Source: Chloroflexota bacterium (GTDB lineage: Bacteria > Chloroflexota > Dehalococcoidia > Lucifugimonadales > GCA-2719675). Taken from it: a stretch of DNA of 64,000 bases. Location of the stretch: NCBI GenBank assembly GCA_002719675.1, contig PBID01000003.1, positions 229,497-293,496 of the forward strand, written 5' to 3'. A program made the position numbers and the translations under genes. Positions 33,201 to 36,420 of this stretch are shown here, one piece after another. The first letter of the stretch is position 1. Every line of letters begins with the position of its first letter. A model generated the notes under the pieces. The model was not told the origin of the DNA. It was given only the letters and a program-made list of their open reading frames with translations, and did not search any database.

Positions 33201-35207
33201 ATGAAACTTAATGACATAGAACAAAAAATTAAATCTATAAGAGATCAAATCAATAGACATAATCATTTGTACTATATTTCAAATTCACCAGAAATTTCAG
33301 ATATTGAATATGACATTTTATTTAGATCACTTTTATCTCTGGAAGAAAAATTTCCGGAATTTATTACTTCTGATTCTCCTTCTCAAAGAATATCAAGTGC
33401 TGTAAGTTCAGAATTTAAACAATTTGAACATATGTCTCCTATGTATAGTTTGGCAAATTGTTTTAGTGAAAAAGAATTTTTAGATTGGTATAAGAGAACT
33501 TTAGATTTGTCAGGTTATGGTCAACTTGATTTGGTTTCTGAAGTCAAATTTGACGGTTTAGCTGTTTCAATGATTTATGAAAAAGGAATTTTTGTTAGAG
33601 GATCTACTCGTGGGAACGGAATAATAGGTGAAGACGTCACAAATAATTTACGTACGATTAAGACTATCCCCATGGTTTTGATGGGAAATGTTCCTGAAAC
33701 TTTAGAGGTTAGAGGGGAGGTAATTTTTCCTAAATCAAAATTTGATCAATTTAATGAATCTAGAAAAACTGAAGGTTTATCTTTATATTCAAATCCTAGA
33801 AATTTAGCTGCCGGATCATTGCGGCAATTAGATTCAAAAGTTACTGCTGAAAGAAGTTTGGACATCTTTGTTTATGGTGTAGGGTATTCAATTGGGAATG
33901 ATTTGAAGACACAATGGAATGTTTTGAATTATTTGAAATCTTTAGGATTTAAGGTGAGTAATTTATCTTCTTTGTTTGTTAAACCACAAGAGGTAATAGA
34001 TTTTTACAACACTCTGGTAGACAGTATTTCAAATGAAGATTTTTCAGCCGATGGTGTCGTTGTTAAAGTTAATAATTTAGAAGTGCAACAGCAGTTAGGT
34101 GTTGTGGGTAAAGATCCTAGATGGGCTATAGCTTACAAATTTCCTTCAATTAAGTCAGTTACAAAATTAAAAAATATTGAATTGAGTGTTGGTAGGACAG
34201 GAAGAATTAGCCCTGTTGCTATTCTTGAACCTGTGAATATCGGAGGAGCTATAGTTAGACAAGCTAGCTTACATAATTTCGATTATATAGTTAACAATGA
34301 TTTGAAGATTAATGATTTAGTAGTTGTTGAAAGGGCTGGTGATGTGATACCTAAGGTTGTTTCTTTTGTTCCTGAAGGTAGAAAAGGAGTGGAATTTGAA
34401 TGGATATTCCCTGAAGAATGCCCTTCTTGTGGAAGTAAGATAATCAGATTAGAGGGAGAGTCTGCACATCTATGTATCAGTTCATCTTGTCCAGCTCAAC
34501 TCAAAAGATTAATTGAACATTTCGTTAGTAAACCAGCTATGAATATTGAAGGAATAGGAATCAAACAAATTTCTATACTTATTGATAATCATATTATTTA
34601 TAATCAAGCAGATTTATTTGATTTAGATTCTAAGAAAGATGAAATAATTAATTTAAATGGTTTTGGAGAAAAAAGGTTTAATAATTGGCAAAAATCTATA
34701 GAAGAAAGTAAAAAGGTTGCATTTTCTAGAGTACTTGTAGCTTTAGGTATACCTCATGTTGGATTAGAAACCGCTGAAATAATTTCAAGAAATTTTAAAA
34801 GCATCAATAATTTAATTGCTGCCAGTGAGTTAGATTTAGTTTCTTTACCTTCTATTGGGCCAAAAGTTGCATATTCTATTCAAAATTATTTTTCTAATGA
34901 AGATAACAAATATTTAGTGAATCAATTAATTTCTACAGGCGTAAGATTTGATAATTCTACAGACAATATGGTTGTTGATAGTAAATTACATGGTCTGAAA
35001 TTTGCAATTACTGGGAGTTTTGATAATTATAACAGGGCAGATTTAGTTTCTATAATTAAGGATTTGGGAGGAATAGTGAGTAGTAGTGTTTCTAAGACAA
35101 CAAATTATCTTATTACAGGAGATAATCCTGGATCAAAATTGGATTTTGCAAAATCCAACGAGGTAAAGATTATAAGTATTAAAGAATTTATAGAATTGAC
35201 TTTATAA
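33201..35207 (+). CDS. ligA: NAD-dependent DNA ligase
   Basis: LVSEVKFDGLAVSMIYEKGIFVRGSTRGNGIIGEDVTNNLRTI; Cys4 zinc finger CPSCGSK...CISSSCPAQ; C-terminal BRCT. Confidence 0.97.
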   Translation: MKLNDIEQKIKSIRDQINRHNHLYYISNSPEISDIEYDILFRSLLSLEEKFPEFITSDSPSQRISSAVSSEFKQFEHMSPMYSLANCFSEKEFLDWYKRTLDLSGYGQLDLVSEVKFDGLAVSMIYEKGIFVRGSTRGNGIIGEDVTNNLRTIKTIPMVLMGNVPETLEVRGEVIFPKSKFDQFNESRKTEGLSLYSNPRNLAAGSLRQLDSKVTAERSLDIFVYGVGYSIGNDLKTQWNVLNYLKSLGFKVSNLSSLFVKPQEVIDFYNTLVDSISNEDFSADGVVVKVNNLEVQQQLGVVGKDPRWAIAYKFPSIKSVTKLKNIELSVGRTGRISPVAILEPVNIGGAIVRQASLHNFDYIVNNDLKINDLVVVERAGDVIPKVVSFVPEGRKGVEFEWIFPEECPSCGSKIIRLEGESAHLCISSSCPAQLKRLIEHFVSKPAMNIEGIGIKQISILIDNHIIYNQADLFDLDSKKDEIINLNGFGEKRFNNWQKSIEESKKVAFSRVLVALGIPHVGLETAEIISRNFKSINNLIAASELDLVSLPSIGPKVAYSIQNYFSNEDNKYLVNQLISTGVRFDNSTDNMVVDSKLHGLKFAITGSFDNYNRADLVSIIKDLGGIVSSSVSKTTNYLITGDNPGSKLDFAKSNEVKIISIKEFIELTL

Positions 35208-35232
35208 AATATAGAGCCACAAGGAGATAGAT

Positions 35233-36420
35233 ATATATCTTTCGCAAATTAACTTAATTAACGTACGAAATTATTCTCGTTTGAATATGGATCTGCCTGA
35301 GGGGATTGTTCTTATTAATGGAAATAACGGACATGGAAAAAGTAATTTACTGGAAGCTATCCATATTTTAGTGGCTGGCAAATCTCAGAGAGCTATAAAT
35401 GATTCAGAAATTGTTTTGAGGAGTGACAATATAGTTAAAGATCATGCACAAATTTCTGTCAATGTAGTAAGAAAAGATCAAAATATAAGCAAAGTCGAAA
35501 TGGATTTAATTAGTAAAAACATATCATCTTATAGTAATGAATTTGTTGATCGGGAAAATGAGAAACTAATTAAATTCAATAAAGTTTTTAAGGTGAATGG
35601 AAATATAATCAAGGTCTCTGATTTTATTGGAAGAATTAATGCAGTGATTTTTACAGCTAAAGATCTAGATTTAGTATATGGAGGACCAAATCTTCGCAGA
35701 AAATATTTAGATCTTTTTATATCTCAGATGGATAAAAAATATATTAAATGCTTACAAAATTTTAATAGGATTGTTTCTCAAAGAAATCATTTGCTTAAGG
35801 CTATTCGTTCAAAAAAATCATCAGAAGATCAACTGGAACAATGGGATGATTTTTTAGTAGATTCTGCTCAGTATTTGATTAGATCTAGAAGTAAAGTAAT
35901 TCAATCTTTAACGGAAAAAGCTAAACCTTTACATAGTGAACTTTCAAAAAATGATTCTGTTTTAGATATTAAATATCAACCAAGTATCAAAATTGACACA
36001 GATTCTTCAGTTGAAGAAAATTCTGATTTTATAAAAAATCTCTTTGCTTCTATTAGAAGCAAAGAGTTACATGAAGGAGTTACATTATTTGGCCCTCATA
36101 GGGATGATTTTTTGATGACATTAGATGAGGGAGGTATTGCAAGTTATTCTTCAAGGGGTCAAAGTAGAACTTTTTTGTTAGCTTTAAAACTTGCTGAAGC
36201 AGAATTATTGACAAAAATGTCAGGTGAAGAACCTATATTACTTTTAGATGATATCATGTCCGAATTAGATAAATTTAGACAGTCTTATATTATGGATAGG
36301 CTAACACATTATCAGCAGTGTATTGTTACTTCTGCTGAATCTGAGATTTTGAATCAAAATGTTCTGCCTATTATGAATAGTTTTAATGTAGAGAATGGTT
36401 CAATTACGAAAAAATTTTAA
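35233..36420 (+). CDS. recF: DNA replication/repair protein RecF, proposed ATA start (ORF track begins late at 35281)
   Basis: In-frame N-terminus upstream of the called TTG: (ATA)YLSQINLINVRNYSRLNMDLPEGIVLINGNNGHGKSNLLEAIHIL; AAGGAG (35221-35226) lies 6 nt before the ATA; in-frame stop TAG at 35212-35214 bounds the ORF. Confidence 0.9.
   Translation: MYLSQINLINVRNYSRLNMDLPEGIVLINGNNGHGKSNLLEAIHILVAGKSQRAINDSEIVLRSDNIVKDHAQISVNVVRKDQNISKVEMDLISKNISSYSNEFVDRENEKLIKFNKVFKVNGNIIKVSDFIGRINAVIFTAKDLDLVYGGPNLRRKYLDLFISQMDKKYIKCLQNFNRIVSQRNHLLKAIRSKKSSEDQLEQWDDFLVDSAQYLIRSRSKVIQSLTEKAKPLHSELSKNDSVLDIKYQPSIKIDTDSSVEENSDFIKNLFASIRSKELHEGVTLFGPHRDDFLMTLDEGGIASYSSRGQSRTFLLALKLAEAELLTKMSGEEPILLLDDIMSELDKFRQSYIMDRLTHYQQCIVTSAESEILNQNVLPIMNSFNVENGSITKKF

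Follow-up and report, generated by a model that had tools for sequence, protein, structure and literature searches.

The IF3 gene infC starts with AUU in Escherichia coli and with AUA in Staphylococcus aureus and is autoregulatory. Start triplets lacking a 3′-G are those that IF3 discriminates against (PMC4611024). An AUU start has also been ascribed to E. coli pcnB (Binns and Masters 2002, as cited in PMC13009471 and PMC1780047). For ccpN, cvfC1 and citZ of S. aureus, which start with AUA or AUU, output in poor medium is ~10% of that from AUG, rising to as much as 30% for ccpN in rich medium; those AUA/AUU starts that are conserved have extended Shine–Dalgarno (SD) sequences (PMC13009471). 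An E. coli cell contains ~18–50 molecules of RecF. Excess RecF is toxic through replisome destabilization, survival dropping by one log when the level is raised 14-fold; no such toxicity applies to RecO and RecR (PMC10287930, PMC6451095). Here we analyze a recF gene of the Dehalococcoidia with a probable AUA start, together with its counterparts in related genomes.

Results

The recF locus of the window

The window, that is, the whole 64,000-nt stretch of DNA that was analyzed, lies within contig C3 of genome G000 (G000:C3). Its recF region comprises the following features, all on the plus strand:

33201–35207: ligA (NAD-dependent DNA ligase, identified by sequence), upstream neighbor, ending 25 nt before the ATA
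35212–35214: TAG, in-frame stop bounding the recF frame upstream (read in the window and its translation)
35221–35226: AAGGAG, SD sequence 6 nt 5′ of the ATA (read in the window; same in G001)
35233–35235: ATA, probable start codon, at the initiator Met position of other RecF proteins
35233–36420: recF coding sequence, ATA to TAA, 395 aa (translation; TIGR00611; aligned from residue 1 with 5z67/5z68)
35281–35283: TTG, first canonical codon of the recF frame (open reading frame list), inside the conserved first strand region

The encoded protein is RecF, as a profile search with TIGR00611 scored 289.7 bits (cut-off, 172) and covered model positions 1–338 of 339. In a phmmer alignment, the residue encoded by ATA (residue 1) falls on the Met with which the solved RecF chains 5z67/5z68 begin, and the N-terminus is predicted to read (f)M-YLSQINLINVRNY. 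A sequence-only reading of this DNA had proposed that recF starts at this ATA. It had placed the TAG, AAGGAG, ATA and TTG in one frame and at the positions given above, correctly in each case. Our own reading of the window likewise found no ATG, GTG or TTG in the recF frame between the TAG and the conserved RecF N-terminus and the AAGGAG 6 nt before the ATA. TTG 35281, the start chosen by the canonical-start open reading frame list, had been said to cut into the conserved N-terminus; it would indeed cost the protein L7, N9 and R11 (counted from the residue after the start in alignment A1), which are invariant in 19 relatives.

Start codons of recF across relatives

Close relatives had been suggested as a check on whether the codon is truly ATG. 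The nearest one, G001, belongs to the same genus (70% RecF protein identity) and has the same arrangement, AAGGAGATAGAA-ATA-TAT, including the AAGGAG, and whole families carry ATT or ATC. Across 107 genomes of the order, which appears to comprise SAR202 and relatives within the class Dehalococcoidia, the recF start position is occupied by ATT (32), ATC (31), ATA (5), ATG (18), GTG (15), TTG (3) or another triplet (3), the last three cases having a canonical start one codon away. ATA, ATT or ATC (ATH) is, thus, present in 68 of 107 genomes, a proportion that is not an unbiased frequency because part of the sampling relied on pattern searches favoring certain motifs. Nineteen families have ATH in every genome sampled; the other 20 lack it and have ATG, GTG or TTG at the recF position or one codon off; no mixed family was sampled. 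The genomes are mostly metagenome assemblies, with closed chromosomes among the ATH carriers. The alternative that the ATA is an artifact of sequencing or assembly, or that an ATG has varied in this strain, would have the AT-rich GATATATAT context as its sole argument, set against ATA, ATT or ATC in independent genomes of many families, closed chromosomes included. We, therefore, reject this explanation as having next to no probability.

The 58 genomes sampled from other orders of the class contained TTG (24), GTG (15), ATG (12), ATA (4) or ATC (3) at the recF start. The ATA and ATC cases are sporadic (L139, L135, L136, L137, L144, L147 and L213) and, within family f59, ATH recF stands beside close relatives with TTG or ATG. 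This suggests that these cases may be separate gains from weak starts.

Together with the 68 genomes of the order, these seven amount to 75 ATH recF cases. No canonical codon was present in the upstream frame read in 54 of the 75, and for 50 of these 54 the frame is closed by a stop no more than 39 codons away. In the other 21, a canonical codon occurred somewhere upstream in frame and might be the start in individual cases. Downstream canonical starts offer no escape, since the first such codon lies at least 29 codons into the gene in at least 15 of the 75. A true start farther upstream, either joined to recF by a programmed frameshift or at another canonical codon, could appeal to those 21 cases and to the frameshifting indicated for prfB of the same genome (see below). 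Against it, the genes upstream of recF differ between families in identity, distance and frame, stops lie 2–9 codons upstream in many ATH cases and the SD is sited for the ATH codon. An upstream frameshift error joining recF to a canonical start had been raised as a way in which the ATA proposal might fail; we rejected such a fusion because upstream neighbors, frames, distances and stop positions vary, and any form of upstream start is very improbable.

Triplets, Shine–Dalgarno sequences and leaders

Three offset cases aside, the position holds only ATH and NTG triplets, which is the pattern of a start and unlike that of an internal hydrophobic residue. In a 69-row RecF tree, the distribution of ATH and NTG requires five changes (500 shuffles: mean 21), one of them within the order, compared with 12 or more among ATA, ATC and ATT; these counts are approximate, given the tree's numerous weak forks and occasional long branches. 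Within the order, ATH recF genes have longer SD matches than NTG recF genes (4.43 versus 3.56 bases, P = 0.0002, an optimistic value because same-family genomes are not independent). The match reaches at least 4 bases in 60 of the 68 ATH recF genes, with spacing peaking at 6–8 nt.

These data bear on a reading in which recF does start at AUH, yet without any regulatory function of that codon: the gene would be little needed, drift would have fixed a poor start and SD compensation would have restored an adequate yield. The stronger SD of ATH genes could be such compensation, and weak recF starts are common elsewhere in the class (TTG and GTG accounting for 24 and 15 of the 58 genomes). However, ATH is retained in all sampled members of 19 families through many third-base changes, few of them to G, although one mutation would suffice for a return to ATG. 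We regard this reading as unlikely; it accepts the AUH start, and its probability overlaps with that of the AUH start itself.

A small hairpin (GGAGAUA with UAUCUUU) at window positions 35223–35242 could mask both SD and start codon, and G001 has a similar sequence there. As a candidate control element, a leader hairpin over the SD was rejected: it is predicted, yet not significantly better than in shuffled sequences (z = −1.05). The ligA–recF gap of the window contained no promoter consensus match. In several families, for example, at L016, L019, L053 and L058, inspection by eye revealed a TGnTAnaAT-like box 20–45 nt before the ATH. This suggests that, in families without ligA close by, recF may have its own promoter and a short leader.

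Start codons of other genes in the same genomes

As a start-codon control, 224 kb of G000:C3 were compared with 200 kb of G001:C17, yielding 187 non-overlapping orthologous frames. Seven were flagged, of which five had a canonical codon at the end of a conserved leader and the remaining two were prfB and recF. Only recF, plus prfB, lacked a canonical start among the 187 pairs, and ATH starts as a general genome habit are, therefore, rejected within the 224 kb compared. The prfB gene (RF2; G000:C3:188719–189777), identified by sequence, is an open frame without a canonical start that appears in line with a classical +1 programmed frameshift (LWC site). In ATH genomes, recR has a canonical codon at the N-terminus in every readable case.

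The infC gene, invoked in the sequence-only reading as the precedent for a non-canonical start, is itself an ATH gene here. Its conserved start is ATH in 27 of 27 ATH-recF genomes (21 ATA, 5 ATC and 1 ATT, read by eye), with no canonical codon ahead in the frame read in 15 of them; in G000, the sequence is AGGAGAATACAG-ATC (G000:C18:12226–12735, minus strand). The gene was found in 54 of the 60 genomes searched, G000 included. Across infC loci L249–L275 and L286–L311, the start is ATA, ATC or ATT in almost every genome of the class that was read, exceptions being G042 (ATG) and G310 (GTG). Among relatives with a mostly canonical recF, 22 of the 24 with a readable infC start have ATH there too. 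The AUH of infC, therefore, seems to be ancient within the class, and that of recF would be a trait added to it.

An altered genetic code or initiator tRNA could make AUH an ordinary start, and the shared AUH of infC and recF might be taken in its favor. Internal ATA codons, however, align with 866 ATA, 438 ATT and 147 ATC versus 30 ATG codons, that is, AUA encodes Ile as in the standard code, and the tRNA-Met genes carry a CAT anticodon. The absence of a canonical start in only one of 187 pairs, prfB aside, also speaks against this explanation, which we reject as exceedingly improbable.

Wider distribution

Searching 84,980 species for a RecF N-terminal motif whose start position is an Ile codon returned 32 stretches. 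Twenty were Chloroflexi, Dehalococcoidia or SAR202 records matching the RecF N-terminus. Eight of the remaining 12 were not RecF by profile, and the four that were all have an upstream in-frame canonical codon, located 1–4 codons up in L090, L091 and L105 and 24 codons up in L096. No ATH recF start was found in 177 genomes from other classes of the phylum, where all 28 RecF-like matches (assessed by eye) had ATG or GTG. The strict motif pattern misses divergent recF genes, so rare ATH cases elsewhere are possible.

Discussion

Our data argue that AUH (AUA in the window; AUA, AUU or AUC in most sampled genomes of the order) is the recF start codon, a reading to which we assign a probability of roughly 87% from the comparative sequence evidence. 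Its position and conservation, the lack of alternatives, the SD, the CAU initiator tRNA, the standard code and the presence of an IF3 gene are direct observations. The sequence-only proposal is, thus, supported by ATA in a same-genus genome and by ATH across much of the sampled order. Beyond that proposal, the trait is clade-wide, spans ATA, ATT and ATC and is accompanied by ATH in infC of the same genomes.

We infer initiation at AUH, a low yield, IF3 discrimination and dosage as the underlying reason. The SD, at optimal spacing, would place the 30S subunit on AUA, where fMet-tRNA (anticodon CAU) would pair with the first two start bases and mismatch the third; the first RecF residue would be formyl-Met, not Ile. 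IF3 would be expected to reject most such recF initiation complexes, and little RecF would be made for that reason. A strong SD can partly offset a weak codon, so a low RecF yield is not certain. The recF gene would be a target of IF3 discrimination with attenuated initiation, like infC, pcnB and S. aureus ccpN. As infC of the same genomes is also AUH, the IF3-sensitive control familiar from the classical infC loop probably extends to recF.

Selection may keep the weak start because excess RecF destabilizes replisomes. The low abundance of RecF in E. coli and its toxicity when overproduced agree with selection for a limit on RecF synthesis and, by this analogy, we lean toward the weak start being such a limit on dosage. 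Sister families lack ATH, so ATH is not essential to RecF control. More tentatively, and in a reading that we hold to be less likely than not, recF and infC could form a small IF3-sensing regulon in which RecF synthesis would rise as the ratio of free IF3 to 30S subunits drops. Replication-gap repair would then be coupled to the translation state, and the weak start would be held by selection across the order.

Gene callers limited to ATG, GTG and TTG would truncate or mis-start RecF in these genomes. The system offers a testable case in which selection on start-codon quality would limit the amount of a protein toxic in excess, with the sister families carrying ATG, GTG or TTG recF as natural controls. 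Very few genes have a conserved AUH start, namely infC, pcnB and, recently, ccpN and cvfC1; a DNA-repair gene over a whole order would be added to them. We found no relevant report of recF with a non-canonical start or of SAR202 start codons in the open-access literature. The phenomenon is of a known kind, and recF as an AUH-start gene over at least 19 families appears to be new.

Compared to RecF proteins of the TIGR00611 family, the window protein is full-length with the same residue 1 and differs in starting with ATA instead of ATG, GTG or TTG. It resembles infC in having an AUH start with an SD, in the same genomes, at a codon type that IF3 discriminates against, but infC is autoregulatory whereas recF, as a repair gene, would be subject to the regulation rather than its source. 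With E. coli pcnB, as described in the papers citing the original work, recF would share a weak AUH start that limits a protein outside the translation machinery; it is a different gene, and the pcnB AUU is not known to be conserved over an order. S. aureus ccpN (AUA) and cvfC1 (AUU) likewise combine a conserved AUH start with a strengthened SD (PMC13009471). Those two starts were demonstrated by Ribo-Ret and reporters (PMC13009471), and that of recF is supported by comparative genomics over 19 families.
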